From positions 186,001-250,000 of the forward strand of contig NZ_VAUP01000038.1 of NCBI RefSeq assembly GCF_005871085.1: DNA of 64,000 bases, read 5' to 3'. Shown piece by piece: positions 8,353 to 45,636 of this stretch (position 1 is the stretch's first letter; each line of letters begins with the position of its first letter). This DNA comes from Xanthobacter autotrophicus (GTDB taxonomy: Bacteria > Pseudomonadota > Alphaproteobacteria > Rhizobiales > Xanthobacteraceae). The notes below the pieces were generated by a model that was not told the DNA's origin, did no database searches, and worked only from the letters and a program-made list of their open reading frames with translations. The translations under genes and the position numbers were made by a program.

Positions 8353-8541
8353 CTGCCGGTCATGGCGGGCGCGGCTCTGCGTCCGCCCGCGATGTGAGGC
8401 GGACGCCCGGCCCCCAGACTGCCCTGATCGGTGGTCGGGCATCGCATCACTGCGGAGGGGAAGTGTGGGGCCCCTGCCCACTCTCCCCTCCGCCCCGGAC
8501 AGGACACCGGGACGGCTCAAGAATGGTCGAATGGCATACAC

Positions 8542-9393
8542 ATGAACAAGCGCCCCTTCCTCGCCCTGTTCGTCACGCCCGCCGTGTTGGCGGCCCTTGC
8601 CTCGGCGGCGGCGCTGGCGGCGATCCTGCAATATGCCTTCCGCGCCTATGTGCCGGGATCGCTCGACCCGGGCGGCTTCTCGCTTTCGAATTTCGAGGCG
8701 CTGCTGCGCCCGCTCTATGCGCAGGTGTTCGTGCAGACCGTGTGGATCTGCCTGCTCACCGCCTTCATCACCCTTGTGGTGGCCTATCCGCTGGCCTTCG
8801 CGCTGGTGCGCACGCGCAACGTGGCGCTGAAGTCGTTCCTGCTGATCACGGCGGTGACGCCGCTGTTCCTGGGCGAGGTGGTGCGGACCTATTCCTGGAT
8901 CATCGTTCTGGGGAACACCGGTTTCATCAATTCCATTCTCATGGGCCTTGGCCTCGTGGAGCGTCCGGTGCAGATGATGTTCACCACCTTCGGCGTGGTG
9001 GTGGCGCTGGTGCACGTGACCCTACCGGTGATGGTCATCATGCTTGCCGCCGCGCTTTCCCACATCGACGTGGACTATGAGAAGGCGGCCACCTCGCTGG
9101 GCGCCGGGCCGGTGAAGGCCTTTCTCACGGTGACGCTGCCGCTCTCCATGCCCGGCGTAGTGGCGGGCGTTTCCACCGCCTTCGCCTGGACCTTTTCCGC
9201 CTTCGCGACCCCGCAGATGATCGGTGGCGGACGGGTGAGCATGATCTCGACCCTCGTCTACCAATTGGGCTTTGCCTCCTTCAATTTCCCCTTCGCGGCG
9301 GCGCTTTCCATCACCGGCATCGCGCTCACCTTCGCGGTGCTGGCCATGGCCAAGCAGGCCATCCGCCCGCTGGAAAAGATCGGAGCCCACTGA
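8542..9393 (+). CDS. ABC transporter permease (PotB-like)
   Basis: The 283-residue inner-membrane protein has about six hydrophobic segments and the cytoplasmic EAA loop (EKAATSLGAGPVKAF) that docks to the ATPase. I use ATG 8542, since the residues encoded upstream are not membrane-protein-like. Its stop overlaps the ATG of the second permease by one base. With the binding protein 213 bases upstream, it forms a four-gene importer. Confidence 0.88.
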   Translation: MNKRPFLALFVTPAVLAALASAAALAAILQYAFRAYVPGSLDPGGFSLSNFEALLRPLYAQVFVQTVWICLLTAFITLVVAYPLAFALVRTRNVALKSFLLITAVTPLFLGEVVRTYSWIIVLGNTGFINSILMGLGLVERPVQMMFTTFGVVVALVHVTLPVMVIMLAAALSHIDVDYEKAATSLGAGPVKAFLTVTLPLSMPGVVAGVSTAFAWTFSAFATPQMIGGGRVSMISTLVYQLGFASFNFPFAAALSITGIALTFAVLAMAKQAIRPLEKIGAH

Positions 9394-10226
9394 TGCGCCG
9401 CCGTCTTATCCCCGCCCGCATCGGCGAGCGCATTCTGAAGGTCGCCGGCTGGAGCGTGGTTGCGCTCATCGTCGCCTTCATCATCCTGCCGGCGGTGGTG
9501 GTGGCCATCTCGGCCTTCAACGATCGCGCCATCCTCACCTTCCCGCCGCAGTCGTGGTCGCTGCGCTGGTTCCGGCGCGCCTTCACCTATCGCGATTTCG
9601 CCGTCGGCTTCCAGAACGGGCTCATCATCACCGCGTTCGCCTCCTCCATCGCGCTGGTGGTGGGGGCGGGCTTCGCCTTCGCCATCGATCGCTACAGCTT
9701 TCGCGGCAAGAGGGCGCTGGAAGCCATGCTGACCTCGCCGCTGGTGATCCCCCATTTCACCATCGGCCTCGGCTTCCTCATCCTCGCCGCGCAGGTGCAT
9801 GCCACGCGCACCTTCGCCCTCGTCATCGTCTGCCATGTGGTGCTGGTGCTGCCCTTCGTCATGCGCTCGGTCTATGTGTCGCTGCGCAATCTCGACGGAC
9901 GGCTGGAGCTGGCCGCCGCCAGCCTCGGCGCCAGGCCCGGCATGGCGCTATGGACGGTGACGCTGCCGCTCCTCATCCCCGGCCTGTTCTCGGGCTGGCT
10001 GTTCGCCGCCATCCTGTCCTTCAACGAATTCACCGCCTCGCTGTTCGTCACCGCCCAGGCAACCCAAACCCTGCCGGTGGCCATGTATAATTATGTCCGC
10101 GAATATGCCGACCCGACGCTCGCGGCGCTCTCCGTCATCTACATCGTGGTGACGGCGGGCCTCCTCACCCTCGCCAACCAGTTTCTCGGCCTCGGAAAGG
10201 TGCTGAACGTTGAGCATGCCCGCTGA
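9393..10226 (+). CDS. ABC transporter permease (PotC-like)
   Basis: The 277-residue protein is the second transmembrane subunit, with an N-terminal membrane helix, a FPPQSWSLRWF segment typical of PotC-like permeases and an EAA loop (ELAAASLGARPGMAL). It is translationally coupled to the first permease through a TGATG overlap. Together they form the membrane channel of the importer. Confidence 0.88.
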   Translation: MRRRLIPARIGERILKVAGWSVVALIVAFIILPAVVVAISAFNDRAILTFPPQSWSLRWFRRAFTYRDFAVGFQNGLIITAFASSIALVVGAGFAFAIDRYSFRGKRALEAMLTSPLVIPHFTIGLGFLILAAQVHATRTFALVIVCHVVLVLPFVMRSVYVSLRNLDGRLELAAASLGARPGMALWTVTLPLLIPGLFSGWLFAAILSFNEFTASLFVTAQATQTLPVAMYNYVREYADPTLAALSVIYIVVTAGLLTLANQFLGLGKVLNVEHAR

Positions 10227-10254
10227 ACGCCGCGATCCGCAGGAGCGCGCCTCC

Positions 10255-11373
10255 ATGTCCTCAATCCCGCCTGACGTGGCGTCCCAGACCCGCCCGGTGG
10301 GTGTGCAGATCGACGGCGTCACCAAACGCTTCGGCGACGCCACCGCGCTGCACGAGGCGTGGCTGAAGATCGGCCAGGGCGAGTTCATGACGCTGCTCGG
10401 CCCGTCCGGCTGCGGCAAGACCACCCTGCTCAACCTCATCGCCGGCTTCCTGGAGGCGGATGGCGGCGAGATCTTCGTTTCCGGCAGCCTGATGACCGAG
10501 ACGCCGCCCTATGATCGTGAGATCGGCGTGGTGTTCCAGAACTACGCGCTGTTCCCGCACATGAGCGTGGCGAAGAACGTGGGTTATGGCCTGCGCATGC
10601 GCGGCGTGCCCAAAAGGGAAATCGAGCAGCGGGTGGCCGAAGCGCTGGCGCTGGTGAAGCTTGCCGCCTTCGGCGACCGCAAGCCGCGCCAGCTCTCCGG
10701 CGGCCAGCAGCAGCGCGTGGCGCTGGCCCGCGCCCTCGTCATCCGCCCCAAGGTGCTGCTGCTGGACGAGCCGTTCTCCGCCCTCGACAAGAATCTGCGC
10801 GGCTCCATGCAGGTGGAGCTGAAGGAGATCCAGAGGAAGCTCGGGGTCACCACCATCTTCGTCACCCACGACCAGAGCGAGGCGCTGTCCATGTCGGACC
10901 GCATCGCGGTGATGTCCGACGGGCGCATCCGCCAGGTGGGCACGCCCGACGAGATCTATCGCCGGCCGCTCGACCCCTTCGTCGCCGCCTTCGTGGGCGA
11001 TGTGAACGTGCTGCCGGCGCGCCTTGAACGCCGCCTCGGCGACATGGCCACCGTCGCCCTGGGCGAGGGCCGGGTGCAGGTGCGTGCCGAGACGCTGGAC
11101 GGCCTTGTGCCGGGCGCCGCAGTGGACCTGTTCGTGCGACCGGACGCCATGCGCTTCGCCGATGCCGACGGCGTACTCGCCGGCACGGTGGCGACCCATG
11201 TCTATCAGGGCTCCCACGTGGATGTGCTGGTGGATGTTCCGGCCGCCAGGGGCGGTCGCGTCACCGTGCGGGTGCCCGGCCATGAAGCACCGGGTCGCTG
11301 GCCGGCGGGCGCTCACGTCAGCCTCGATTTCGCGGCGGGCGACGCCGTGGCCTTCGCCTCCGATGCGAAATGA
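10255..11373 (+). CDS. ABC transporter ATP-binding protein (PotA-like)
   Basis: The protein of 372 residues powers the importer. It has Walker A (GPSGCGKTT), the signature LSGGQQQR, Walker B (LLLDEPFSALD), an H-loop (VTHDQSE) and a C-terminal TOBE-like regulatory region. The ATG at 10255 has AGGAG 9 bases upstream; the frame continues to 10210 and would overlap the permease gene. It closes the operon SBP-permease-permease-ATPase. Downstream is a convergent DUF1028 gene. Confidence 0.9.
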   Translation: MSSIPPDVASQTRPVGVQIDGVTKRFGDATALHEAWLKIGQGEFMTLLGPSGCGKTTLLNLIAGFLEADGGEIFVSGSLMTETPPYDREIGVVFQNYALFPHMSVAKNVGYGLRMRGVPKREIEQRVAEALALVKLAAFGDRKPRQLSGGQQQRVALARALVIRPKVLLLDEPFSALDKNLRGSMQVELKEIQRKLGVTTIFVTHDQSEALSMSDRIAVMSDGRIRQVGTPDEIYRRPLDPFVAAFVGDVNVLPARLERRLGDMATVALGEGRVQVRAETLDGLVPGAAVDLFVRPDAMRFADADGVLAGTVATHVYQGSHVDVLVDVPAARGGRVTVRVPGHEAPGRWPAGAHVSLDFAAGDAVAFASDAK

Positions 11374-11422
11374 TGCCGGCGTGCGCCCGTTAGAAAGCGG
11401 ATGCCGTGGCCTGTGCGCACTC

Positions 11423-12076
11423 CTAGAAGCTGGGCGCGGTGGCCGGGGATCGGGCTCGGCTCTCGAAGGCGGCCTGCTCGGGGGCGTAGCGGTCCCACAG
11501 GGCGCGCAGGGCGGCGATGGGGGCCTCGTCCCAGTCCACCCGCAGGTCCACCACCGGCCAGTCATAGGTGCATGCCACATGAAGGCCCGCCGCATGCTCG
11601 TCCCCGGTCTCGCCACCGGCTTCGAGTCCGGCCTCCAGGCCCCGCAGCAGCCGCTCGGCCAGCGGCAGGGCGGGGTCGGCGAGGAAGGCGTCGCGCATGG
11701 CCGCCGGCACGCCGTCATGGGTGAGGAGATTGCCCAGGGCGATACAGCCGGGCCCTTCCGCAGCAGCCGCGATGGGCAGGGCCTCGGCCCCCGAATGCCA
11801 CGCCACCTGTCCGTAGCGGTCGATGACGCTGGCCTGCCGGAAGGCGGGCTGCGGCGTTCCGGCCAGCAGGGTTGTGAGCACGCCGCCGGCGCCGATGCCC
11901 TGCCGCAGCAGCGCGAGGCCCGCAGGCCCCAGCGCGGGATCGGTCACATTCTGAGTGGTGACGAGCCCGAGCGGGCTCACCCAGGCGCACCGGCTGGCGA
12001 CGCAGATGCTGGACGAGGTGATGGCGATGCCGAAGGCGCCGGTTTGCGGGCAGCGTGCGGCGATGGAATAGGTCAT
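11423..12076 (-). CDS. DUF1028 family protein
   Basis: The 217-residue protein matches DUF1028, a family with an Ntn-hydrolase-like fold. It begins with the usual MTYSIAARCPQTGAFGIA pattern and has the TQNVTDP segment in the middle. A strong ribosome site (AAGGAG) precedes the ATG. It is divergent from the M20 deacylase gene with only 38 bases between the starts. Members often lie beside amidohydrolases and transporters, so a hydrolytic role on an amide or peptide is plausible but unproved. Confidence 0.85.
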   Translation of the reverse strand: MTYSIAARCPQTGAFGIAITSSSICVASRCAWVSPLGLVTTQNVTDPALGPAGLALLRQGIGAGGVLTTLLAGTPQPAFRQASVIDRYGQVAWHSGAEALPIAAAAEGPGCIALGNLLTHDGVPAAMRDAFLADPALPLAERLLRGLEAGLEAGGETGDEHAAGLHVACTYDWPVVDLRVDWDEAPIAALRALWDRYAPEQAAFESRARSPATAPSF

Positions 12077-33610: not shown

Positions 33611-34738
33611 TCAATAGACGATGACGTGCCGCACCACCTCGCCGCGGTCGAGGCGGTCGAAGCCCTCGTTGATCTCATCGAGCGGACCGGTGGAGGAGAG
33701 CAGGCGGTTCACCGGCAGTTTGCCGCGCTGGTAGAGCGCCATGAAGCGGGGAATGTCGCGCGGCGGCACGCAGCTGCCCATGTAGCTGCCCTTGATGGTG
33801 CGCTCTTCTGCCACGAGGTGCACCGGGGGCAGCGAGACCCGGGCGTTGGGATTGGCGAGGCCGCCCGTGGCGGTGGTGCCGCCGCGCTTGGTGATCTTGT
33901 AGGCCAGCTCGAAGGCGGGGGCGGAGCCTGCCATCTCCACCGCATGGTCCACGCCGCCCTTCGTTGCGGCCTTCACGGCATCCACCACATCGGGATCGTT
34001 GGCGAGGAAGGTGTCGGTGGCGCCCAGCGAGCGGGCGATGTCGAGCTTGGCCGGCGACAGGTCGAGGGCGACAATCTGCTCCGCCCCGGCCGCCACCGCG
34101 CCCATCACCGCCGACAGGCCGACGCCGCCGAGGCCCACCACCGCGACGCTCTGGCCGGGCCGCACGCCGCAGGTGTTCACGATTGCGCCGACGCCGGTCA
34201 TCACCGCGCAGCCGAACAAAGCGGCATCCACCAGCGACATCTCGGGGTCGATCTTGATGATGGAGCGGCGCGATATCACCGCATATTCGCCGAAGCCGGA
34301 AATGCCGCACAGATGATAGGCATCGGTGCCGTCATCGCAGGTCAGCCGCCGGCCGCCGCCGAGCAGGGTGCCGGCGCCGTTGGCCGCCTGGCCGGGGCCG
34401 CACATCTGGGCCCGCCCGTCGAGGCAGGAAGGGCAGGTGCCGCAGGTGGGCACGAAGCTCATCACCACATGGTCGCCGGGGGCAAGATCGGTCACGCCGG
34501 GGCCCGGCTCCACCACCACGCCGGAGGCCTCGTGGCCGAGCACCATGGGCAGCTGGCGGGGACGGTCGCCATTGATCACGGACAGGTCGGAATGGCACAG
34601 GCCAGCCGCCGCAATCTTGATCAGCACCTCGCCGGCCTGGGGCGGGGCGAGCTCAACCGTTTCAATGGAGAGCGGGCGCGTCTGTCCGTAGGGCTTGCTC
34701 ACAGGGGACGCACGGAGCACGGCGGCGCGAATACGCAT
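33611..34738 (-). CDS. Zinc-dependent alcohol dehydrogenase (MDR superfamily)
   Basis: The 375-residue enzyme has both zinc sites: catalytic Cys in GLCHSD, His in GHEASG and Cys in FGCAVMTG, and the structural cluster CGTCPSCLDGRAQMC. The NAD-binding motif is GLGGVG. GGAGG precedes the ATG. It lies downstream of a TetR gene on the same strand, with two hairpins between. It could oxidise an alcohol or a thiol-adduct made by the divergent operon, but the substrate is unknown. Confidence 0.88.
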   Translation of the reverse strand: MRIRAAVLRASPVSKPYGQTRPLSIETVELAPPQAGEVLIKIAAAGLCHSDLSVINGDRPRQLPMVLGHEASGVVVEPGPGVTDLAPGDHVVMSFVPTCGTCPSCLDGRAQMCGPGQAANGAGTLLGGGRRLTCDDGTDAYHLCGISGFGEYAVISRRSIIKIDPEMSLVDAALFGCAVMTGVGAIVNTCGVRPGQSVAVVGLGGVGLSAVMGAVAAGAEQIVALDLSPAKLDIARSLGATDTFLANDPDVVDAVKAATKGGVDHAVEMAGSAPAFELAYKITKRGGTTATGGLANPNARVSLPPVHLVAEERTIKGSYMGSCVPPRDIPRFMALYQRGKLPVNRLLSSTGPLDEINEGFDRLDRGEVVRHVIVY

Positions 34739-34943: not shown

Positions 34944-35651
34944 TCAGGCAACTTCGGCGGCGGTCATGCGGGCGAGCAGCAGATCGGCGGTTTCTCCCGC
35001 GAGGAGGGCGACGTTCTCGTCCCGGGTGATCATGGCGGCGACGATGGCCCCGTCGATCAGCAGTCCCAGCTGATGGGCGGCGCCGTCCGGGTCCGGCGCG
35101 CCGGCCTCCGCGGCGAGGCGGGAGAGGGTCGCGAGCACCACCTTCTTGTGGGCGAGGGCGATCTGGCGCATGCGATCATCCCTTTTGTCGTGCTCGGCCA
35201 CCGCATTGATGAATGGGCAGCCGAAGAAACGGTCGTCGCCGAACCAGTCGCGCAGCACCGGGAAGATGCGGCGCAGGCGGGAGAGAGGTGTTGCCTCTCC
35301 CTTGAGCAGTTCGCCGAGGAACCAGTCGCGCCAGGCCGCGCCCTCGCGCTCCAGCACTGCTTCCACCAGCCGCTCCTTGGAGCCGAATGCCTTATAGAGC
35401 GTCGCCTTCGCCGTGGCCGCCTCCGCCACCACCGCGTCCACGCCCACGGCGGTGATGCCGTATTGGCAGAATAGCCGCGTCGCCGCCGCGATGATGCGCT
35501 CGCGCGCCTTCGGTTCAGCCTCGGCAGGCAGCTCCAGGGCGTGATGGGGATTGAAGGTTCCCGCGGTGCTCCCTGCCTGGGGACTCCCCATCTGGGCCTT
35601 CTGCGTACGTACCTTGGGCGCCTGGGTCCGCGCCGTCTTCGCCTGCTGCAT
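34944..35651 (-). CDS. TetR-family transcriptional regulator
   Basis: The 235-residue protein has an N-terminal tail of about 45 residues, then the TetR helix-turn-helix (RERIIAAATRLFCQYGITAVGVDAVV, with AATAKATLYKAFGSKE) and a helical ligand-binding domain. It is divergent from the OsmC-like gene. Two matching palindromes lie between the two starts, so it most likely represses itself and the plus-strand operon until a ligand binds. The ligand is not known. An internal ATG would shorten the tail. Confidence 0.88.
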   Translation of the reverse strand: MQQAKTARTQAPKVRTQKAQMGSPQAGSTAGTFNPHHALELPAEAEPKARERIIAAATRLFCQYGITAVGVDAVVAEAATAKATLYKAFGSKERLVEAVLEREGAAWRDWFLGELLKGEATPLSRLRRIFPVLRDWFGDDRFFGCPFINAVAEHDKRDDRMRQIALAHKKVVLATLSRLAAEAGAPDPDGAAHQLGLLIDGAIVAAMITRDENVALLAGETADLLLARMTAAEVA

Positions 35652-35686
35652 TGCTTCTCACCACCGTGCCGCTTTGGTGGGCACAA

Positions 35687-35704
35687 AGACAGACCTGTCT
35701 GTTA
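35687..35704. promoter_or_regulatory. Candidate TetR operator near the tetR start
   Basis: The 18-bp site AGACAGACCTGTCTGTTA contains the inverted repeat ACAGAC-CT-GTCTGT. It matches the perfect palindrome at 35833-35850 at 15 of 18 positions. It lies 35 bases upstream of the regulator start, a position suited to autoregulation. Confidence 0.75.
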
Positions 35705-35832
35705 AATACAGGCAGGATTCATGCCGCGCAATCCCGGCGCTGAAACTCGAAAAATCCTGCCTTCTCTTAAGGAAACACCGTTTCCCGGTGGGTGCGGCAC
35801 GTCAGGCTTGCGTCTGGCACGTGCCGTGCATA

Positions 35833-35850
35833 AGACAGACCGGTCTGTCT
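35833..35850. promoter_or_regulatory. Candidate TetR operator before the osmC-like operon
   Basis: AGACAGACC-GGTCTGTCT is a perfect 18-bp palindrome ending 22 bases before the OsmC-like ATG. It shares its half-site with the second site beside tetR. Binding here would block transcription or early elongation of the plus-strand run. Confidence 0.8.
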
Positions 35851-35872
35851 ATATCTGCCGAGGAAGATCCCG

Positions 35873-36439
35873 ATGTCTCAATCCAACACCGTCCTGACCG
35901 GCTGCCTGATGCCTGAAGCGACCACGGGCTGTCTTGCCCCCATCGACAAGGACGGGCTCGAGAAGCTCATCGCCGCCGGCAAGGCCGACCCGAAAGTCAT
36001 CAAGACGCTGAAGTGCAAGACGGTGGCCGAGGGTCGCTTCCGTCATGCGAACTACATCCGCAACCTTGCCCCCTACATCGTGGACGAGCCCCCGGGACTG
36101 CTCGGCGACGACACTGCGCCGAACCCGTCCGAGGCCTCCCTCGCTGCGTTGGGCTCCTGCCTCGCGGTGGGTCTGCACGCCAATGCGGTGCATCGCGGCT
36201 GGACCGTGCGCAAGCTGGAACTCCAGCTGGAAGGGGATCTCAACATCACCGCGGTGTGGGGCACGGGCGATGTCAGCGAGAAGCCGGTGGGCTTCACCGA
36301 CGTGCGCGTGAAGGTCGAAATGGAGTGCGACGGCGTGCCGAAGGAAGACGTGGACGCCCTCATCTCCCACGTCACCAAGTGGTCGCCGGTGGCCAACACC
36401 TTCGTGCGCCCGGTCAACCTCGAGGTGGCGCTGGCCTGA
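35873..36439 (+). CDS. OsmC-like protein lacking the second redox cysteine
   Basis: The 188-residue protein has the OsmC/Ohr fold, with the first conserved Cys in ALGSCLAVGL. In classical OsmC/Ohr peroxidases a second Cys follows near the C-terminal helix (CPVSN-like); here the place reads KWSPVANTF, so it is Ser. It is probably not a thiol peroxidase. GAGGAAG precedes the ATG. It is the first gene after the TetR operator and is followed by an acyl-CoA-dehydrogenase-like gene 81 bases on. Confidence 0.85.
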   Translation: MSQSNTVLTGCLMPEATTGCLAPIDKDGLEKLIAAGKADPKVIKTLKCKTVAEGRFRHANYIRNLAPYIVDEPPGLLGDDTAPNPSEASLAALGSCLAVGLHANAVHRGWTVRKLELQLEGDLNITAVWGTGDVSEKPVGFTDVRVKVEMECDGVPKEDVDALISHVTKWSPVANTFVRPVNLEVALA

Positions 36440-36520
36440 TCCGGCCTGCGCCATCTCCACGGCATGCCCGGTTGATCCGGGCGTGCCCCACCTTCCGCCT
36501 TCCGGGACCTGAGGATTGCC

Positions 36521-37642
36521 ATGTCGCTGACCGCCGTGACCGCCTTGTCGCCGCATGATCTGTCCGCATCCGAGCTCGATCCGGGGGCGGCCCTCGCCGA
36601 GATCGGCAAGATCGCGGTGACCGACCTGTCCGCCTGGGTCCGCGCCATCGACGAGGGCACCTATCCGGCCACCCTGCTGCACCGCTTCGCCGATTCCGGT
36701 GCCTTCCGCCTGCATCTCGCCGAGGGGCATCAGCTCGGTGCGGCTATCGAGGGCATGAGCCGCATCTCCGAGGTGTGCACCTCTTCCGCCTTCATGGCGT
36801 GGTGCCAGAACACCCTGGTCTGGTACCTGATCAATTCAGAGAACACGGTCGCCAAGTCCAAGTATCTGGCCGCCGCCGCCACCGGCCATGTGCTGGGCGG
36901 CACGGCGCTGTCCAATCCCATGAAGTCCTTCTTCGGCATCGAGACGCTGAAGCTGAAGGGCACCCGCGTGGATGGCGGCTACAAGGTGAAGGGCATCCTG
37001 CCGTGGGTGTCGAACCTCGGCCCGGACCATTTCTTCGGCGCCATCTTCGCGCTGGAGGGCGGCGAGCCAGTGATGGCGCTCATCGATTGCGCCGATCCTG
37101 CGGTGACGCTGAAGCCCTGCGAGCCCTTCCTCTCCATGGATGGCACCGGCACCTACGGCGTGCAGGTCCGCGACCTGTTCGTGCCCGACGACATGGTGCT
37201 GGCGCACGAGGCCATGCCTTTCGTGAAGAAGATGCGCGCCGGCTTCATCCTGTTGCAGGCGGGCATGGCCATCGGCCTCATCCGCGACTGCATCGCCATG
37301 ATGCGCGAGGTGGAAGGCCCGCTGGGCCACGTCAACCGCTTCCTCGACGTGCAGCCGGACGCCATGGCCGAGACCTTGGCCGCCATGGAGGCGGAGGTGA
37401 ACGCGCTGGCGCAGACCCCCTTCGACGCCAGCCCGGACTATTGGCGGCGCGTGGTGGCGGCCCGTCTTCTCGCCGGCGAGAAGAGCGTGGAGGCGGCGCA
37501 CAATGCGATGCTCCATTGCGGCGCTCGCGGCTATGTGCGGGCCAGCCGCTGCCAGCGCCGCCTGCGCGAGGCCTATTTCGTCGCCATCGTCACGCCGGCC
37601 ACCAAGCAGTTGAAGCTGATGCTGGACCAGATGCCAGCCTAG
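36521..37642 (+). CDS. Acyl-CoA dehydrogenase-like flavoprotein
   Basis: The 373-residue protein has the three-part acyl-CoA dehydrogenase fold, with recognisable middle-domain text (GGTALSNPMKSFFGIE, VKGILPWVSNLG). The C-terminal position of the catalytic base, usually YEGT, reads IVTPATKQL, so a glutamate is not evident. Relatives without this base include flavin monooxygenases such as DszC/SfnB types. Given the sulfur-linked neighbours, an oxygenase or desulfurising role is a reasonable inference but not shown. Confidence 0.8.
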   Translation: MSLTAVTALSPHDLSASELDPGAALAEIGKIAVTDLSAWVRAIDEGTYPATLLHRFADSGAFRLHLAEGHQLGAAIEGMSRISEVCTSSAFMAWCQNTLVWYLINSENTVAKSKYLAAAATGHVLGGTALSNPMKSFFGIETLKLKGTRVDGGYKVKGILPWVSNLGPDHFFGAIFALEGGEPVMALIDCADPAVTLKPCEPFLSMDGTGTYGVQVRDLFVPDDMVLAHEAMPFVKKMRAGFILLQAGMAIGLIRDCIAMMREVEGPLGHVNRFLDVQPDAMAETLAAMEAEVNALAQTPFDASPDYWRRVVAARLLAGEKSVEAAHNAMLHCGARGYVRASRCQRRLREAYFVAIVTPATKQLKLMLDQMPA

Positions 37643-37784
37643 CGCCTTCAGCACGTTAGTGCCCGCCGGCGCGATGAAAGACGCGGCGGCCGGTGCCAAG
37701 CCTCCATTTCAGAACACGCGAGGGGCGCAAAGCCTCCGACACCTTCCGGTTTTCTCGTCGTCCACCCTGCGAGAGGGGATCACC

Positions 37785-38648
37785 ATGAGTGCCATTCTGA
37801 TTTCGCCGTCCGACCTGTCCACGCTGATCCTGTCCGAGCCCACCGTCGTCATCGACACGCGCAACCCGGAGAGCTACGCGGCGGGGCACGTTCCCAGCGC
37901 GGTGAACCTCCACGAGATCTTCACCTTCCTCGCAACCTCGACCCCCGAGGGCTATGCGGAACTGCGCGCCAAGTTCGCCGACGCCTTCGGCAAGGCCGGC
38001 CTCTCCGGCAAGGAGACGGCGGTGCTTTACGAGCAGTCCATGAATTCGGGCTTCGGCCAGTCCTGCCGCGGCTATTTTCTGCTCACCTTCCTCGGCTATC
38101 CCAAGATCAAGGTGCTGCACGGCGGCTTTGCCGCCTGGGAGGCCGCCGGCCTGCCCGTCACCACCGCCGTGCCCGAGCCGAAGGCCGCCGCCTTCCCGGT
38201 GGATGAGGCGGCGGGCGAGGTGATCATCGACGCCGCCGCCATGCTCGCGGCGGTGGAGGACCCTGCCGTCGCGAAGCTCGACGTGCGCGACGTGGACGAG
38301 TGGATCGGCGAAAGCTCCTCGCCCTATGGCAAGGACTTCTGCCCGCGCAAGGGCCGCATCCCCGGCGCCAAGTGGATCGAGTGGTACCGCATGATGAAGC
38401 CCACGGCCGAAGGCCCGCGCTTCAAGTCCGCCCCCGAGATCCTCGCCGAGTGCGCCACGGTGGGCATTTCACCTGAAACCCCTGTCTATCTCTACTGCTT
38501 CAAAGGGGCGCGGGCGTCCAACACCTTCCTCGCGCTGAAAGAAGCGGGGGTGAAGGACGTGAAGATGTATTTTGGCTCCTGGAACGAGTGGTCGCGCGAC
38601 CCGGCGCTCCCCATTGAGGAGGGGCATCCGGCGACGGCCACGGCCTGA
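37785..38648 (+). CDS. Tandem-domain rhodanese sulfurtransferase
   Basis: The 287-residue protein has two rhodanese domains. The first (VIDTRNPESYAAGH) lacks the active-site cysteine loop. The second has the loop CFKGAR after VYLY, with a Cys nucleophile, and WSRDP near the end. Such enzymes pass sulfane sulfur from thiosulfate or 3-mercaptopyruvate to an acceptor such as cyanide. The loop differs from both CRKGVT (rhodanese) and CGSGVT (mercaptopyruvate type). It is 12 bases before the next gene. Confidence 0.87.
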   Translation: MSAILISPSDLSTLILSEPTVVIDTRNPESYAAGHVPSAVNLHEIFTFLATSTPEGYAELRAKFADAFGKAGLSGKETAVLYEQSMNSGFGQSCRGYFLLTFLGYPKIKVLHGGFAAWEAAGLPVTTAVPEPKAAAFPVDEAAGEVIIDAAAMLAAVEDPAVAKLDVRDVDEWIGESSSPYGKDFCPRKGRIPGAKWIEWYRMMKPTAEGPRFKSAPEILAECATVGISPETPVYLYCFKGARASNTFLALKEAGVKDVKMYFGSWNEWSRDPALPIEEGHPATATA

Positions 38649-38660
38649 ACCGAAGGAGCT

Positions 38661-39281
38661 ATGAGCGTGCCCGAGATCACCTGCTATTTCAGCCCTCAAT
38701 CGGGCTATGCCTATCTGGGGCACCCCCGCCTCGTCGCCATCGCGCGCGAGCACGGCGCCAGCATTCTCTGGCGGCCCGTGGACATATTGAAAGTCTTCGC
38801 CGAGGGCGGCTCCACCGCCCCGGCCAAGCAATCTCCCGTGCGCAATGCCTACCGCAAGAAGGACATCGTGCGCTGGGCGAAGCTGCGCGGCATTCCCATC
38901 TCCACCGAGCCGGCGTTCTGGCCCACGGACACGCTGCCCGCCTGCCGGCTGATTGCCGCCGCGCAAGGCGAGGGGATCGACCCCGAAGCCCTCATCTTCG
39001 CCTGCCTCAGTGCGGTGTGGGCACGGGACATCCAGATTTCCGACCGCGCCAACCTGATCCGCCTCGCCGACGAGGTGGGGCTTGATGGCGCGCACCTCGT
39101 GGAACTGTCCGACAGCGTGGCCGCCGCCGAGCAGGTCCAGCGCAACACGGTGGCCGCCATCGAGGCCGGCGTGTTCGGCTCGCCCACCTATGTGGTGAAT
39201 GGCGAACTCTTCTTCGGCCAGGACCGGCTGGATTTCGTCGCGGCAGCACTGGTGGCCGAAGCGTCGGGGGCGCCGCGATGA
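38661..39281 (+). CDS. DsbA/kappa-GST fold protein (2-hydroxychromene-2-carboxylate isomerase-like)
   Basis: The 206-residue protein has the thioredoxin-with-helical-insert fold. The active-site region reads CYFSPQSGYAYLG, with Ser in place of a CxxC pair, as in kappa GSTs and NahD-type isomerases that use glutathione. The end (FGSPTYVVNGELFFGQDRL) is diagnostic. The stop overlaps the next ATG by four bases, so it is co-translated with the flavoprotein. The reaction here is unknown. Confidence 0.85.
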   Translation: MSVPEITCYFSPQSGYAYLGHPRLVAIAREHGASILWRPVDILKVFAEGGSTAPAKQSPVRNAYRKKDIVRWAKLRGIPISTEPAFWPTDTLPACRLIAAAQGEGIDPEALIFACLSAVWARDIQISDRANLIRLADEVGLDGAHLVELSDSVAAAEQVQRNTVAAIEAGVFGSPTYVVNGELFFGQDRLDFVAAALVAEASGAPR

Positions 39282-40456
39282 GCGCCCCCGTCGTCATCGT
39301 TGGGGCGGGGCAGGCGGCGGCGCAGGCCGTCACCTCCCTGAAGGCCGAGGGGTATGCCGGCGATATCATCGTGATCGGCGACGAGCCCTATCTGCCCTAT
39401 CAGCGCCCGCCGCTCTCCAAGGCCTATCTCGGCGACGAGATGACCGAGGACCGGCTCGAATTGAAGGCGCCCAAGTTCTATGCGGATGCCGGCGTTGACC
39501 TGCGCCTCGGCACCCGCGTCCCCCGCCTGCTGCCGGCCGAGAAAACGGTGGAATTGGCGGACGGCTCCCGCCTTGCCTACAGCGCCCTTTTGATCGCCAC
39601 CGGCACCCGCGCCCGCGCGCTGCCGGTGCCGGGGGCGGAGCTTTCCGGCGTCTTCTCCATCCGCTCCATTGATGACGTGAAGCACTTCCGCGCCGCCGCG
39701 GTGCCGGGGGCAAAGCTCGTCATCATCGGCGGCGGCTATATCGGCCTCGAGGTGGCGGCCAAGGCGAAAAAGCTCGGCCTCGACGTGACCGTGGTGGAAG
39801 GCCAGCCGCGCCTGCTCGCCCGCGTCGCCTGCGCCACCATCTCCGATTTCACCCGCACCCTGCACGAGGGCAACGGCGTCACCATCCTCACCGGCGTGGG
39901 CGTGGCCCGGCTGGTGGGCCCGGAGCGGGTGACGGGGGTGGAACTGGCCGACGGCCGGGTGCTGCCGGCCGATCTTGTGCTCGCCGCCGTGGGCGCGGTG
40001 CCAAATGCGGAACTGGCGGCCGAGGCCGGGCTGGTGCTGGAAAACGGCATCCGCGTGGACGAGGCGACGCGTACCAGCGTGCCGGACATCCATGCCGTCG
40101 GCGATGTCGCCTCTTTTCCGAGCAGGCTCTATGGCCGGCGGGTTCGCCTTGAATCCGTGCAGAATGCCATCGATCAGGCCAAGGCTGCCGCGAAAGCGAT
40201 CACTGGTGGTGCTGTTGCATACGATCCAATCCCCTGGTTCTGGTCCGATCAATACGATGTGAAGCTCCAGATCGCCGGCCTCCTCGACGGCTTCGAGCGC
40301 ACCGAAACCGAGGGCGACGTGGCCGCCGGACGCTTCTGCGTGCGGTATTTCGCGGGGGATCGTCTGCTGGCGGCCTGCTCGGTCAACGATCCCAAAAGCC
40401 ACATGCTGGCGCGCAAGGCGCTGGCCATTCCGCCGCCGGTGCCCGTACCCGGCTAG
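39278..40456 (+). CDS. FAD-dependent ferredoxin/rhodocoxin reductase-like oxidoreductase
   Basis: The 392-residue protein has two dinucleotide folds: GAGQAAAQA at the N-terminus for FAD and GGGYIGLEVA in the middle for NAD(P)H. The YQRPPLSK and DIHAVGDVAS motifs are those of ferredoxin and rubredoxin reductases of oxygenase systems. No ferredoxin gene is adjacent. It may supply electrons to the acyl-CoA-dehydrogenase-like flavoprotein or an off-cluster oxygenase; this is inference. Confidence 0.88.
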   Translation: MSAPVVIVGAGQAAAQAVTSLKAEGYAGDIIVIGDEPYLPYQRPPLSKAYLGDEMTEDRLELKAPKFYADAGVDLRLGTRVPRLLPAEKTVELADGSRLAYSALLIATGTRARALPVPGAELSGVFSIRSIDDVKHFRAAAVPGAKLVIIGGGYIGLEVAAKAKKLGLDVTVVEGQPRLLARVACATISDFTRTLHEGNGVTILTGVGVARLVGPERVTGVELADGRVLPADLVLAAVGAVPNAELAAEAGLVLENGIRVDEATRTSVPDIHAVGDVASFPSRLYGRRVRLESVQNAIDQAKAAAKAITGGAVAYDPIPWFWSDQYDVKLQIAGLLDGFERTETEGDVAAGRFCVRYFAGDRLLAACSVNDPKSHMLARKALAIPPPVPVPG

Positions 40457-40548
40457 GCCGTGGCACGGGCATTGCCATCACGAGGCGTCACCTACCCAGC
40501 GTCATCTGCCCGCCCAACCTTTGCAACCCGCCCTCCTGGAGAGCCCTG

Positions 40549-41913
40549 ATGTCGATGTTCTCGAACCCGTTCTCGCTGAAGTCGAAGCTCGGCCGCTGCC
40601 TGTGCGGGCGCCATGCGACGCCGGAAGAGCACGCATCGGCGGAGCGGGCGGCGGGGCTCGGCGACGAGGCGCGCTATCGTGATGTGGTGGCCTCGGGCCT
40701 CATGCGCGCGCTGTTTCCCAACGACATGAAGCGCCGCGCCTTCCTGAAGGCGGTGGGCGCCTCCACCGCCGCGGCGGCGCTCGCCACCTTCTTCCCGCTG
40801 GACGCCGCGACCGAGGCGTTCGCCGCCACCGGCAAGCCGGAGAAGACCGACCTGAAGGTGGGCTTCATCCCCATCACCTGCGCCACCCCCATCATCATGG
40901 CGCACCCCATGGGCTTCTATACGAAGCACGGCCTGAACGTGGAGGTGGTGAAGACCGCCGGCTGGGCGGTGATCCGCGACAAGACCATCAACAAGGAATA
41001 CGACGCCGCCCACATGCTGGCGCCCATGCCGCTGGCCATCTCCCAGGGCCTCGGCTCCAACCCGATCCCCTTCGTCACCGCCGCTATCGAAAACATCAAT
41101 GGCCAATCCTTCACCCTTGGCATCAAGCACAAGGACAAGATGGACGTGAAGTCGTGGAAGGGGCTGAAGTTCGCCATTCCCTACGACTTCTCCATGCACA
41201 ATTACCTGCTGCGCTACCTGCTGGCGGAGAACGGCATCGATCCCGACACCGATGTGCAACTGCGCGTGGTGCCGCCGCCGGAGATGGTGGCCAACCTGCG
41301 AGCCGAGAACATCGACGGCTTCCTTGCCCCCGACAATATCGCCCAGCGCGCGGTGTTCGACGGCGTGGGCTTCATCCACTCTTTGTCCAAGACCATGTGG
41401 GACGGCCACCCCTGCTGCGCCTTCGCGGCGAGCCGGGAATTCATCACCACCATGCCCAACACCTATGCGGCGCTGCTGCGGGCCATCATCGATGCCACCG
41501 GCTATGCCTCCAAGGCCGAGAACCGCAAGGCCATCGCCGAGGCCATCGCCCCGCCGGCCTATCTCAACGCGCCGGTGACGGTGTTGGAGCAGGTGCTGGT
41601 AGGCAAGTTCGCGGACGGCCTCGGCAACATCAAGGATGACCCCAGGCGCATCGATTTCGATCCGTTCCCGTGGGAGAGCTTCGCGGTGTGGATGCTGACC
41701 CAGATGAAGCGCTGGGGCCAGATCAAGGGCGAGGTGGACTACGCCTCCGTCGCCAACCAGGTGTTCCTCGCCACCGACGCCGCCAAGGTAATGACGGAGA
41801 TGGGGCTGACCCCGCCGGCCACCACCTCCAAGTCGTTCTCGGTGATGGGCAAGGTGTTCGATCCGGCGAAGCCCGCCGAATACGTCGCCTCCTTCGCCAT
41901 CAAGCGGAGCTGA
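40549..41913 (+). CDS. cynA: Cyanate ABC transporter substrate-binding protein (NrtA/CmpA family)
   Basis: The 454-residue protein belongs to the NrtA/CmpA group of nitrate, bicarbonate and cyanate binding proteins. A twin-arginine signal (KRRAFLKAVG, residues 61-70) is preceded by an unusual 60-residue N-terminal extension with CLCGRH (Cys17, Cys19, His22). Export therefore probably uses Tat, with the folded protein in the periplasm. The symbol is inferred from the transporter plus cyanase order (cynABDS). Nitrate or another anion cannot be excluded. Confidence 0.8.
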   Translation: MSMFSNPFSLKSKLGRCLCGRHATPEEHASAERAAGLGDEARYRDVVASGLMRALFPNDMKRRAFLKAVGASTAAAALATFFPLDAATEAFAATGKPEKTDLKVGFIPITCATPIIMAHPMGFYTKHGLNVEVVKTAGWAVIRDKTINKEYDAAHMLAPMPLAISQGLGSNPIPFVTAAIENINGQSFTLGIKHKDKMDVKSWKGLKFAIPYDFSMHNYLLRYLLAENGIDPDTDVQLRVVPPPEMVANLRAENIDGFLAPDNIAQRAVFDGVGFIHSLSKTMWDGHPCCAFAASREFITTMPNTYAALLRAIIDATGYASKAENRKAIAEAIAPPAYLNAPVTVLEQVLVGKFADGLGNIKDDPRRIDFDPFPWESFAVWMLTQMKRWGQIKGEVDYASVANQVFLATDAAKVMTEMGLTPPATTSKSFSVMGKVFDPAKPAEYVASFAIKRS

Positions 41914-41916
41914 GCG

Positions 41917-42756
41917 ATGAAGAGCCTCGGCGTGCGCGCCGGCCTGCTTTCGGTGCTGCTGTTCGTCGCCTTCTGCGCGCTCTGGCAGATCGCCGTCACC
42001 CCGAGCGCGAGCACGGGGCCGGCGCTCGATCCGGAATATGCCAAGCTCATGGGCATCTCCACCGTAGGGGCGAAGTCGGCCATGCCGGGGCCGCTCGACG
42101 TGGCGGCCAAGCTCTGGGACAACCTGAAGCGGCCGTTCTACGACAACGGGCCGAATGACAAGGGACTGGGCCTCCAGCTTCTCTATTCCATTGGGCGCGT
42201 GTTCATCGGCTATGGCCTGGCGGTGCTGGTGGCGGTGCCGGTGGGCTTTCTCATCGGCATGTCGCCGCTCGCATACCGCGCGCTCGACCCCTTCATCCAG
42301 GTGCTGAAACCCATCTCGCCCCTCGCCTGGATGCCGCTTGCGCTCTACACCATCAAGGATTCCGCACTCTCGGCCATCTTCGTCATCTTCATCTGCTCGG
42401 TGTGGCCCATGCTGCTCAACACCGCCTTCGGGGTTGGGGCGGTGCGCAAGGAGTGGCTGAACGTCGCCCGCACGCTGGAGGTCGGCCCATGGCGGCGGGC
42501 CTTCACGGTGATCCTGCCGGCGGCGGCGCCCACCATTCTCACCGGCATGCGTATCTCCATCGGCATCGCCTGGCTCGTCATCGTGGCGGCGGAGATGCTC
42601 GTGGGCGGCACCGGCATCGGCTACTTCGTCTGGAACGAATGGAACAACCTTTCCATCGCCAATGTCATCGTGGGCATCCTGCTCATCGGCGTCGTGGGCA
42701 TGGTGCTCGACCTGATCCTGGCGCGCTTGCAGAAGCGCGTGACCTTTCCGGAGTGA
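41917..42756 (+). CDS. cynB: Cyanate ABC transporter permease
   Basis: The 279-residue inner-membrane protein is an NrtB/SsuC-type permease: an N-terminal helix, a linker with PGPLDVAAKLWDN, and an EAA-like loop (NVARTLEVGPWRRAF). It starts three bases after cynA. It forms the channel for the cognate binding protein. The symbol follows from context. Confidence 0.83.
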   Translation: MKSLGVRAGLLSVLLFVAFCALWQIAVTPSASTGPALDPEYAKLMGISTVGAKSAMPGPLDVAAKLWDNLKRPFYDNGPNDKGLGLQLLYSIGRVFIGYGLAVLVAVPVGFLIGMSPLAYRALDPFIQVLKPISPLAWMPLALYTIKDSALSAIFVIFICSVWPMLLNTAFGVGAVRKEWLNVARTLEVGPWRRAFTVILPAAAPTILTGMRISIGIAWLVIVAAEMLVGGTGIGYFVWNEWNNLSIANVIVGILLIGVVGMVLDLILARLQKRVTFPE

Positions 42757-42761
42757 GCGTC

Positions 42762-43697
42762 ATGACCAGGACATCAGCCGAGACGGTGAATGCCGATCGC
42801 TTCATCTCCATCGAGGGCATCGCCCGGCGCTATCCGGCGGCGGGAGGCGGCTCCACCACCATCTTCGAGGACCTTTGGCTGCAGGTGCCGCGGGGTGAGT
42901 TCGTCTGCATCATCGGTCATTCGGGATGCGGCAAGACCTCCGTGCTCAACATCCTCGCCGGGCTGGAGACCCCGTCCGACGGGGTGGTGGTGGTGGATGG
43001 GCAGGCCATCGACGGGCCGAGCCTCGACCGCGCCGTCATCTTCCAGGGCCATGCCCTGCTGCCGTGGCGCAGCGTGCTCGGCAATGTCGCCTATGCGGTC
43101 TCCTCGCGCTGGCGCAAGGCGGGACGGACCGAGGTGGAGGAGCGGGCGAAGCGCTTCATCGACCTCGTGGGCCTCAAGGGCAACGAGGCCAAGAAGCCGG
43201 CGGAGCTCTCCGGCGGCATGCGCCAGCGCGTGGGCATCGCCCGGGCGCTGTCCATCGAGCCCAAGATCATGCTGATGGATGAGCCGTTCTCGGCGCTGGA
43301 CGCGCTCACCCGCGGCACGTTGCAGGACGAGGTGCGTCGCATCTGCAAGTCCACCGGCCAGACCGTGGTGATGATCACCCACGACGTGGACGAGGCCATC
43401 TACCTCGCCGACAAGATCGTGCTCATGACCAACGGCCCGGAGGCCATGGTGGCCGAGGTGGTGGAGAACCCGCTGCCGGCCGACCGCCGCCGCGACAGCA
43501 TCCACCACGAGCCGGATTTCTACACGGTGCGCAACCACCTGGTGGATTTCTTGGTGTCCCGCAGCCGCACCTTCAGGGACGAGAAGCCGGCGGGCTACGA
43601 CCCGCGCCATCCGCCCCTGGTGCGCCTGGGCGTGCCGCCGGAGCCGCCGCCCGCCAACACCATTCCCTTTCCCGCCGTTGCCAAGGCCCGCGACTGA
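42762..43697 (+). CDS. cynD: Cyanate ABC transporter ATP-binding protein
   Basis: The 311-residue ATPase has Walker A (GHSGCGKTS), the signature ELSGGMRQR, Walker B (ILMDEPFSALD-type, LMDEPFSALD) and an H-loop (ITHDVDEA), all close to NrtD/SsuB. The ATG is five bases after the permease stop. The C-terminal 60 residues are proline-rich. It powers cyanate uptake by inference from the adjacent cyanase. Confidence 0.83.
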   Translation: MTRTSAETVNADRFISIEGIARRYPAAGGGSTTIFEDLWLQVPRGEFVCIIGHSGCGKTSVLNILAGLETPSDGVVVVDGQAIDGPSLDRAVIFQGHALLPWRSVLGNVAYAVSSRWRKAGRTEVEERAKRFIDLVGLKGNEAKKPAELSGGMRQRVGIARALSIEPKIMLMDEPFSALDALTRGTLQDEVRRICKSTGQTVVMITHDVDEAIYLADKIVLMTNGPEAMVAEVVENPLPADRRRDSIHHEPDFYTVRNHLVDFLVSRSRTFRDEKPAGYDPRHPPLVRLGVPPEPPPANTIPFPAVAKARD

Positions 43698-43743
43698 CCG
43701 CGCGGCGCCGGCCCGACAAAACCAAGAGTGGAGAGCAAGACCC

Positions 43744-44232
43744 ATGAAGCGCGAGCAACTCACCGAGAAGATCCTCGACATCAAGCGCGAGAAGGGCTGG
43801 ACCTGGAAATACATCTGCGAGGAAATCGGCGGCATGTCGCCTTTTCTCGTGGTTGGCGCGCTGCTGGGCCAGATGAAGCTGGTGAAGCCGCTGGCGAAGA
43901 AGGCAGCCGAGCTGTTCGGCCTCTCCGAGGTGGAAGAGCGCATGCTGAACGAGGTGCCCATGCGCGGCGCCGGCACGCCCATGCCCCCCACCGACCCCCT
44001 CATCTACCGCTTCTACGAGCTGGTGATGGTGAACGGTCCGGCCTGGAAGGCGCTCATCGAGGAGGAGTTCGGCGACGGCATCATGTCCGCCATCGACTTC
44101 AACATGGAGATGGTGCGCGAACCCAATCCCAAGGGCGACAGGGTGCAAATCACCATGTCCGGTAAGTTCCTGCCCTACAAATACTATGGCAACGAGCAGG
44201 GCATCCCCGACTACGGCTTCAAGGAAAGCTGA
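43744..44232 (+). CDS. cynS: Cyanate hydratase (cyanase)
   Basis: Cyanase converts cyanate and bicarbonate to ammonia and two CO2. The 162-residue protein has the N-terminal helical DNA-binding-like domain and the catalytic C-terminal domain. The active-site trio is Arg89, Glu92 and Ser115, with the same spacing as Arg96, Glu99 and Ser122 of E. coli CynS. It closes the co-directional run, and an 11-bp tandem repeat plus a strong terminator follow. Confidence 0.95.
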   Translation: MKREQLTEKILDIKREKGWTWKYICEEIGGMSPFLVVGALLGQMKLVKPLAKKAAELFGLSEVEERMLNEVPMRGAGTPMPPTDPLIYRFYELVMVNGPAWKALIEEEFGDGIMSAIDFNMEMVREPNPKGDRVQITMSGKFLPYKYYGNEQGIPDYGFKES

Positions 44233-44258
44233 GGGGCGTTCGCGCGGCCATCGCCGGC

Positions 44259-44302
44259 GCCGTCAAGGTGCCGTCAAGGTACCGCGAGGGTGCCGCGAAG
44301 GT
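44259..44302 (+). repeat. 11-bp tandem repeat (four units) downstream of cynS
   Basis: Four units of 11 bases follow the cynS stop. The first two are identical (GCCGTCAAGGT); the other two differ at the centre (ACCGCGAGGGT and GCCGCGAAGGT). They lie just before the terminator. The origin is probably slippage. Confidence 0.7.
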
Positions 44303-44318
44303 GCTTGGCCCAAAACGA

Positions 44319-44348
44319 AAAACCCCGCCGGGCGACCGGCGGGGTTTT
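44319..44348. terminator. Bidirectional Rho-independent terminator after cynS
   Basis: A 13-bp perfect stem (AAAACCCCGCCGG at 44319-44331 with its complement at 44336-44348) with the GCGA tetraloop lies between cynS and the convergent DUF4167 gene. A and T tracts on the two sides allow termination from both directions. Confidence 0.95.
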
Positions 44349-44376
44349 GCATTCCAGGGCCGCTGCAACGGCAGTT

Positions 44377-45636
44377 TCAGTCGTTGAAGAGCGCGGGCTG
44401 CTCGGGGGCCGGGGCCTCGCCTGCCGCCTGCTCGGTGGCGCCCTCGGCGCGAGTGCGGAAGCGACGGCGACGGCCGCGGCGGGCATCCGTGCCCTCGGCG
44501 GCCTCTGCGGCGACTTCGGGGGCCTCGACCGCCGCCGGCTCGCGGGCCGGCTCCGATGCGGGCTCGGCGCGGACGGGTTCAGGGCGGGGCGGCTCGGCGC
44601 GGGCGACTTCGCGAGCGGGCTCCGCACGAGGAGCTTCCGCACGAGGAGCTTCGGCACGAAGAGCTTCGGCACGTGGAGCCTCTGCCCGGGGCGCCTCAGC
44701 GCGGGGTTCGGCGCGTTCCTTGGCTATGGCGGGGGAGCCGGTGATGAAGGAGGGCAAGCCAAGATCCTGCTCCTCCACGCGCGGGGCGCGGGGCGGACGA
44801 GGGGCCTCGGCCTCCTCGCTGCGGGGGACGCGGGCAGCACGTGGCGTGAAGCCTTCGCCGGTCTCGTCGCGGTTGCGGCGGCGGAACTCGCGTGGCGCGC
44901 GATCCTCCCGGGGGGCGCGCTCCTCGCGCGGGGCGCGCTCTTCGCGGGGTGCCCGGTCTTCACGGGGCTCGCGCTGCTCGCGGGAATCCCGCTGCTCAAT
45001 GGGCGCGCGATCGTCGCGCGGTTCACGCTGCTCACGGAAGTCGCGCTGCTCGCGGGGGGCCCGCTGCTCACGCGGTTCGCGCTGGTCCCGCTGCTCGCGG
45101 GCCTCGCGCTGCTCGCGGGGCTGGTAGCTTTCGCCACCCTCTTCGTCCCGGTTGCGGCGGTAATTGCCCTGACGGTTATCGCGCTGGCCGCGATCATCCC
45201 CACGATTGTCGCGATTGTCGCCACGGGTGTCGCGGTTCTCCCGCGCCTCGCGGGGCTGATAGGGCTGCTCGCCGCGGTTGAAGGGCGGCTGCGGCGCGTC
45301 GAGCGCGCCCACATCGTCCATATCCTCGTCGTCCATCTCGTCGTCGCGACCGAAGCCGGGCGGCGGTGCGAACTGGCCCTGGAGCGAGGCGATGAGACGC
45401 AGATAATGCTCGGCGTGCTGGAAATAATTCTCAGCGGCTACGTGATCACCGGACGACTGGGCGTCGCGAGCCAGCTGCTGATATTTTTCCGCGATGTGGT
45501 GGGCTGTTCCGCGCACCTTCGTGTCCGGGCCGTTCGATTCGTAGACCCGTGTCAGAGGGTTCGAGCTGCGCCGGTTGCCGTTGTTGTTGTTGTTGTTCCG
45601 GCCGCGCATGCGCTGCTTCTGCTGACCATTTCTCAT
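44377..45636 (-). CDS. DUF4167 domain protein with long low-complexity tail
   Basis: The 419-residue protein begins with the DUF4167 domain (about residues 1-90: MRNGQQKQRMRGRN, basic and asparagine-rich, then GTAHHIAEKYQQLARDAQ and AENYFQHAEHYLR). The rest is disordered: Arg/Glu/Gln repeats (REQREPREDRAPRE type) and an Ala-Pro-Arg-Glu stretch (AEAPRAEAPRAE). ATG 45636 is used; an in-frame TTG lies nine bases upstream. The composition suggests nucleic-acid or RNA association, which is inference. The gene lies downstream of prmC in many Hyphomicrobiales. Confidence 0.85.
   Translation of the reverse strand: MRNGQQKQRMRGRNNNNNNGNRRSSNPLTRVYESNGPDTKVRGTAHHIAEKYQQLARDAQSSGDHVAAENYFQHAEHYLRLIASLQGQFAPPPGFGRDDEMDDEDMDDVGALDAPQPPFNRGEQPYQPREARENRDTRGDNRDNRGDDRGQRDNRQGNYRRNRDEEGGESYQPREQREAREQRDQREPREQRAPREQRDFREQREPRDDRAPIEQRDSREQREPREDRAPREERAPREERAPREDRAPREFRRRNRDETGEGFTPRAARVPRSEEAEAPRPPRAPRVEEQDLGLPSFITGSPAIAKERAEPRAEAPRAEAPRAEALRAEAPRAEAPRAEPAREVARAEPPRPEPVRAEPASEPAREPAAVEAPEVAAEAAEGTDARRGRRRRFRTRAEGATEQAAGEAPAPEQPALFND

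Follow-up and report, generated by a model that had tools for sequence, protein, structure and literature searches.

The 64,000-nucleotide stretch of the Xanthobacter autotrophicus genome analysed here (the window; assembly GCF_005871085.1, contig NZ_VAUP01000038.1, positions 186,001 to 250,000) contains a run of nine genes on one strand (35873-44232), in which genes for an OsmC-like protein, a flavoprotein with the acyl-CoA dehydrogenase fold (hereafter ACAD) and a tandem rhodanese are followed by those for a DsbA-fold protein, a ferredoxin-reductase-type flavoprotein (FdR), a putative cyanate transporter (CynABD) and cyanase (CynS). We find that OsmC, ACAD and rhodanese form a core that is conserved together with cyanase, and we assign a probability of about 0.5 to the reading that this conserved module desulfurises a small compound of carbon, nitrogen and sulfur (C-N-S), most likely thiocyanate, in the cytoplasm and delivers cyanate to cyanase for conversion to ammonia and CO2. 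The gene set is widespread in bacteria and apparently undescribed: a preliminary description of this DNA knew of no operon with this exact content, and no description of the combined cluster was found in the open-licence literature. The cyn part is known (excerpts of PMC6627978), and what appears to be new is the proposed C-N-S pathway that ends in cyanate and employs different enzymes.

Gene neighbourhoods were compared in 80 named loci, which are the best 80 of at least 538 confirmed matches and come mostly from Bradyrhizobium; all linkage, promoter and operator counts refer to these 80 because some loci with genome (G) handles and some named loci belong to the same strain. Rhodanese is labelled in all 80 loci, OsmC in 79, CynA in 68 and CynS in 64, and among the 66 loci with enough flanking sequence for neighbour counts, CynS lies near the OsmC-ACAD-rhodanese core in 59. 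Five of the 80, all Bradyrhizobium, have the order TetR / OsmC-ACAD-rhodanese-CynS, with 99-101 bases between rhodanese and CynS and no transporter gene in the neighbourhood examined. Within Xanthobacter, an ACAD of at least 68% identity is encoded in 12 of 14 genomes, our own counted, and the remaining two (88% and 93% complete) have neither this ACAD nor cynS; the gene order is kept across the genus, with the DsbA-like gene missing in two genomes and rhodanese nearly deleted in one.

The association extends to presence and absence across whole genomes. Among 101 genomes of relatives, cynS was found in 22 of the 23 with an OsmC-type ACAD and in 28 of the 78 others (Fisher test, p = 1.5e-7), the single miss being a genome that is 79% complete; outside the genus, the counts are 10/11 and 28/76 (p = 9e-4). 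The 23 exclude ACAD relatives of about 30% identity (paralogues), a split chosen after the data had been seen, and include two matches that look broken, one at a contig end (G017) and one in two frames (G014). cynS is near the ACAD gene in 13 of the 23; in nine it is unlinked, lying on a different contig or some 150 kb off. An even sample of the class (385 genomes) has cynS in 3/3 genomes with ACAD, two of them shared with the relatives set, versus 41/382 (p = 1.4e-3). In family f227 (150 genomes), which shares the phylum of the window's genome and belongs to a different class, cynS occurs in 16/16 genomes with an OsmC-type ACAD, in 0/3 with a carboxymuconolactone-decarboxylase (CMD)-type relative and in 44/131 others (p = 1.5e-7 for OsmC-type versus others; 6e-5 with the CMD type counted in), and lies within about 18 kb of ACAD in 15 of the 16. 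In a sample of the phylum (398 genomes), where CynS was scored in the locus neighbourhood and not genome-wide, 12 strong loci were newly fetched and seven of these have CynS in the neighbourhood examined. Quick gene calling yielded no ACAD in six loci (L232, L233, L236, L238, L239 and L271), and tblastn was used to check four of these (L236, L238, L239 and L271). The link between the core and cyanase is not a chance one, and the co-occurrence of the first genes with cyanase in other genomes that the preliminary description proposed as a check holds both by linkage and by presence/absence.

Outside Xanthobacter and Bradyrhizobium, the core stays while the remaining genes change. Plasmids of Rhodobacterales and Methylocystis carry a different ABC transporter, with a binding protein of the SsuA family (sulfonate type), ahead of the core, and in a Rhodoblastus metagenome-assembled genome (L135) and two further loci (L223 and L237) the transporter is replaced but CynS is kept; L223 adds a gene for a ferredoxin, the [2Fe-2S] type being among the alternative carriers. 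In Marinobacter, Caballeronia, Acetobacter, several alphaproteobacteria of the relatives set and f227 genomes, OsmC and ACAD are accompanied by a rubredoxin-reductase fusion, the domains of which were checked in locus L050 and assigned elsewhere by similarity. Most of these clusters include a NifA-like sigma-54 activator, often with CynS or cynABDS next door; in named alpha-, beta- and gammaproteobacteria, the same core with CynS is found with other regulators and electron carriers. Four loci (L048, L050, L056 and L221) add a metallo-beta-lactamase-type protein; the one in L050, beside the core, matches the persulfide-dioxygenase domain of the bifunctional sulfurtransferase/dioxygenase Blh (2.3e-116), but, unlike in Blh, it has a gene to itself, in a cluster that encodes a sigma-54 activator, OsmC and ACAD. 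A short TauE/SafE sulfite-exporter-like frame, below the Pfam cut-off, follows this gene (L050:9432-9677).

Motifs of the core proteins were counted across all copies, including repeats from the same strains and, for the 119 ACAD copies, fragments. A fold search gives ACAD the acyl-CoA dehydrogenase fold; in 113 of 119 copies (the other six were not inspected), VTPA(T/I)K replaces the YEGT motif, the Glu of which we take to be the catalytic residue of acyl-CoA dehydrogenases, YEGT or FEGT is found in none, and the profile alignment to SCAD stops two residues short of this position. ACAD was also compared with two non-dehydrogenase flavoenzymes of this fold, 3-sulfinopropionyl-CoA desulfinase (5ahs) and a hydroxylase (2rfq): its identity to 5ahs is 12%, many true dehydrogenases match it better, and it would not be expected to act on a CoA substrate. 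Since a ferredoxin- or rubredoxin-type reductase accompanies ACAD in several versions of the cluster, the most obvious guess would be that ACAD uses oxygen. At the positions that we take to be those of the OsmC/Ohr active-site cysteines, the first motif is kept in 112 of 115 copies of OsmC, whereas the second site reads SPVxN(T/S) in all 115 and CPV in none; with one of the two cysteines kept, the protein is therefore not a standard two-cysteine peroxidase. The predicted structure of OsmC was of low confidence (pLDDT 49.9) and was not used. The second-domain loop of rhodanese, CFKGAR with the catalytic Cys, is present in 103 of 104 copies.

Both likely transcription starts in the cluster look sigma-54-dependent, a feature absent from the preliminary description. 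With what we take to be the sigma-54 -24/-12 consensus and at most one mismatch, only two sites appear in the 64 kb, and both sit where promoters are wanted, before OsmC and before CynA. Whereas this count alone is weak (a mean of 0.76 sites per shuffle, with two reached in 17 of 100 shuffles), the conservation is strong: a site matching at least 10/12 within 200 bases before OsmC is found in 79/79 named loci tested, compared with 2.5% of 3950 random 200-base windows and 4/259 upstream regions of other genes. Such a site precedes CynA in 34 of 68 named loci and the CynS gene directly behind rhodanese in 0/5. The Xanthobacter loci L032, L036, L040 and L042 have the second sigma-54-type promoter at the same place as the window. 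A TetR operator-like palindrome begins 4 or 5 bases past the sigma-54 site in 77/80 named loci, 76 of the 80 have a TetR gene labelled within about 10 kb of ACAD, and the second copy of the palindrome near the tetR start recurs in Xanthobacter relatives. Given that the operator covers the expected start point (near 35841 in the window; the second start would lie just downstream of 40476), TetR would block the sigma-54 promoter there. Control may therefore be double, through activation of sigma-54 transcription, with nitrogen status as a possible signal, and through a ligand of TetR. A search for NtrC sites upstream of the sigma-54 promoter in 88 regions, repeats included, gave no clear site (mean shuffle fraction 0.27).

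With these promoters, a single TetR-controlled operon is not supported in the form given by the preliminary description, which had named separate internal promoters and terminators among the evidence against it. Because the second sigma-54-type site lies in the FdR-CynA gap, cynABDS is probably transcribed from a promoter of its own in the window and in Xanthobacter, and part of that counter-evidence is therefore present; no terminator was found in the same gap, so that read-through into the cyn genes could still occur. Scans of positions 35000-45000 added nothing inside the run, with six terminator-like sites versus 5.3 expected and one sigma-70 promoter-like site versus 0.6. Some Bradyrhizobium-type loci, L228, L230 and L231 among them, encode a sigma-54-activator-like protein of about 640 aa, 44-46% identical to the L050 activator, from the opposite strand in the interval that separates rhodanese from cynA; no such gene was seen in the Xanthobacter clusters.

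Cyanase is kept with the core even where there is no transporter, and the core is accompanied by sulfane-sulfur enzymes, which argues that the substrate would yield both cyanate and sulfane sulfur. Of the C-N-S breakdown that had been suggested earlier, the cyanate end fits the gene content, as does sulfane sulfur as the other product; for the substrate we infer thiocyanate, as the simplest compound that would yield both. In the proposed pathway, an ABC transporter of the CynABD or the replacement type would import the substrate, and ACAD would break the C-S bond with electrons from the ferredoxin or rubredoxin reductase, probably using O2. The sulfur would be released in sulfane form onto a thiol, for which the lone OsmC cysteine is a possible candidate, and would pass to rhodanese or, in the sister versions, to the persulfide dioxygenase, while CynS would destroy the cyanate; transcription would depend on sigma-54, with TetR gating at the start site and a second sigma-54 promoter for Xanthobacter cynABDS. 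More tentatively, at somewhat less than even odds, we propose a third bacterial route of thiocyanate use, in which a flavin oxygenase of the ACAD fold would convert thiocyanate to cyanate and persulfide, with the one-cysteine OsmC protein accepting the sulfur; common heterotrophs (Xanthobacter, Bradyrhizobium, Caballeronia, Marinobacter and Acetobacter) would exploit it for nitrogen. If so, common soil bacteria such as Bradyrhizobium and Xanthobacter would have a candidate thiocyanate enzyme, the purpose of part of the cyanase genes would be explained, and a new kind of C-S-breaking flavoenzyme could be useful in the clean-up of mine and coking waste. No thiocyanate hydrolase was found above threshold in the window's own genome or, at the thiocyanate-hydrolase cut-off, in any of 319 sampled genomes; the one candidate above threshold in the own genome (L276, G000:C4 near 35317) is a nitrile hydratase, its beta and alpha genes both scoring above the NCBIfam cut-offs for that enzyme.

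The thiocyanate routes in the excerpts of PMC5328954 and PMC5744179 rely on other enzymes. The thiocyanate dehydrogenase (TcDH) of Thioalkalivibrio resembles our proposal in its proposed products, cyanate and sulfane sulfur, and in a sigma-54-responsive regulator in its cluster (PMC5744179, excerpts), but it is a periplasmic enzyme encoded with copper-uptake and Tat genes (PMC5328954, excerpts), unlike the window's flavoprotein, which has no signal sequence by eye and comes with cyanase and, in several cluster versions, ferredoxin- or rubredoxin-type reductases. The scnABC thiocyanate hydrolase clusters share thiocyanate use with our proposal and include a NitT/TauT-type transporter, with a cyanase gene nearby in one species (PMC5328954, excerpts), but their product is carbonyl sulfide (COS), not cyanate. 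The closest likeness for the second half of the run is cynFABDS of Pseudomonas pseudoalcaligenes CECT5344, a cyanate cluster with the cynABD transporter, cynS and a sigma-54-type promoter and regulator; the excerpted text describes no OsmC, ACAD, rhodanese or TetR unit there (PMC6627978). The window cluster, in turn, has no cynF alongside; the activator-like gene of L228, L230 and L231, opposite cynA, is placed like cynF.

Several observations weigh against the thiocyanate-to-cyanate reading. The preliminary description linked five genes to cyn; OsmC, ACAD and rhodanese hold up, but FdR (13/80) and the DsbA-like gene (11/80) are patchy, and the core therefore comprises three genes, not five. 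Rhodanese is itself absent from several f227 clusters, and in one Xanthobacter (L034 in G002, about 6412-6513) a natural deletion has removed almost all of its gene from the interval that separates ACAD from the DsbA-like gene. Seven of the 66 loci with sufficient flanking sequence lack CynS nearby, and it is absent from the examined neighbourhood of five of the 12 phylum-sample loci, one of which (L222) has cynS about 10 kb off. True acyl-CoA dehydrogenases rank first in the fold search with ACAD. The CMD-type relatives, in which a CMD-family protein replaces OsmC (Moraxella and the three f227 genomes), have cynS in none of the three f227 genomes, and a more distantly related ACAD with an ABC transporter on a Synechococcus elongatus PCC 7942 plasmid (L278, NC_007595) has as neighbours a carbonic anhydrase, a chromate transporter, a serine acetyltransferase and two cysteine synthases; a tie to cyanate is thus not general in the enzyme family. 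We take this plasmid region to be sulfur-regulated, and it could reveal what the wider ACAD family does. The presence/absence tests carry no correction for shared ancestry, and the named loci, being mostly Bradyrhizobium, are not independent. Finally, a cyanase gene beside thiocyanate genes is no proof of a cyanate route, a warning given in the excerpts of PMC5328954.

Part of this evidence would suit other explanations. The same module could oxidise an organic C-N-S compound (an isothiocyanate, a thiocarbamate or a thiourea-like compound), still yielding cyanate. Such a substrate gains from the SsuA-like binding protein of the replacement transporter and from the distant ACAD relatives that sit with similar transporters, as well as from the kappa-type or other glutathione S-transferase (GST) genes in some versions; yet the commonest transporter is of the NrtA/CynA kind, with solved relatives in nitrate and bicarbonate transporters, and in five loci the cluster comes without a transporter gene. 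We consider this substrate class unlikely. Somewhat less probable still is a standard cyanate-uptake operon that merely shares its place and sigma-54 control with an unrelated sulfur or peroxide-stress unit. The own sigma-54-type promoter of cynABDS in the window would be expected then, as would the clusters elsewhere in which cynABDS has its own sigma-54 regulator or runs in the opposite direction, which is often the case, and those without cynS nearby, but independent neighbours would hardly place cynS directly behind rhodanese with neither a transporter nor a promoter-like site, retain it with a different transporter, or remain associated where the genes are unlinked (9/23 relatives). Rhodanese and cyanase are both part of cyanide chemistry, and an oxygen-using flavoprotein with its reductase would suit the oxidation of cyanide to cyanate, with rhodanese making thiocyanate from the rest. 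The persulfide dioxygenase and the SsuA-like transporter of the sister versions point instead to sulfur in the substrate, and P. pseudoalcaligenes CECT5344 uses cyanide without cyanate as an intermediate (PMC6627978, excerpts); we regard cyanide handling as very unlikely.

The layout given in the preliminary description proved exact in every coordinate and gap (an ATGA overlap and gaps of 12, 3, 5, 46, 81, 92 and 142 bases), and its strong bidirectional terminator downstream of the run was confirmed (Table 1). CynS is the sole cyanase found in the genome (a single PF02560 match). The solved proteins nearest CynA come from nitrate and bicarbonate transporters, and CynABD is assigned to the NrtA/CynA-type family with cyanate as putative cargo.

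Table 1 Features of the OsmC-ACAD-rhodanese and cynABDS cluster in the window
Feature	Position	Strand	Evidence
TetR-family repressor gene, divergent	34944..35651	-	PF00440 9.7e-14
TetR operator-like palindrome, upstream copy near tetR start	35689..35702		exact match to ACAGACCNGTCTGT
Sigma-54-type promoter TGGCACG-N5-TGCA, upstream of OsmC	35815..35830	+	consensus scan
TetR operator-like palindrome over expected transcription start	35835..35848		exact palindrome
OsmC-like protein	35873..36439	+	PF02566 2.8e-18
ACAD, acyl-CoA-dehydrogenase-fold flavoprotein without the acyl-CoA dehydrogenase catalytic Glu	36521..37642	+	fold search, motif counts
Tandem rhodanese, loop CFKGAR	37785..38648	+	PF00581 5.5e-31
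DsbA-fold protein, 2-hydroxychromene-2-carboxylate isomerase / kappa-GST kind	38661..39281	+	PF01323 2e-37; nearest solved 2imd
FdR, ferredoxin-reductase-type flavoprotein	39278..40456	+	PF07992 + PF14759
Second sigma-54-type promoter, FdR-CynA gap	40461..40476	+	consensus scan
CynA/NrtA-type substrate-binding protein	40549..41913	+	PF13379 5e-78
CynB permease	41917..42756	+	TIGR01183 above cut-off
CynD ATPase	42762..43697	+	TIGR01184 286.6 bits, slightly below cut-off 291.8
Cyanase CynS	43744..44232	+	TIGR00673 139.9 bits vs cut-off 113.3
Bidirectional terminator hairpin	44319..44348		13-pair stem, T-rich tail

An alcohol-dehydrogenase-like gene (33611-34738, assigned by eye) adjoins tetR and is 89-100% identical in eight close Xanthobacter loci, with matches of 39-41% near tetR in two Bradyrhizobium loci. 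Elsewhere in the same Xanthobacter genome, a paralogous set (L059, G000:C1:361000-379000, about 7287-11700) combines a CMD-type protein, an ACAD relative (about 31% identity) and an ABC transporter akin to the replacement one, without cynS; similar ACAD-transporter sets are found in L053, L055, L058, L060 and L061. A Neisseria gonorrhoeae record (L275, 6980-8062) contains an ACAD of the family (about 40% identity) with no partner genes labelled alongside. In two loci (L259:11388-12059 and L261:11441-12121), a GST gene follows the rubredoxin-reductase gene and may correspond to the window's kappa-GST-like gene.

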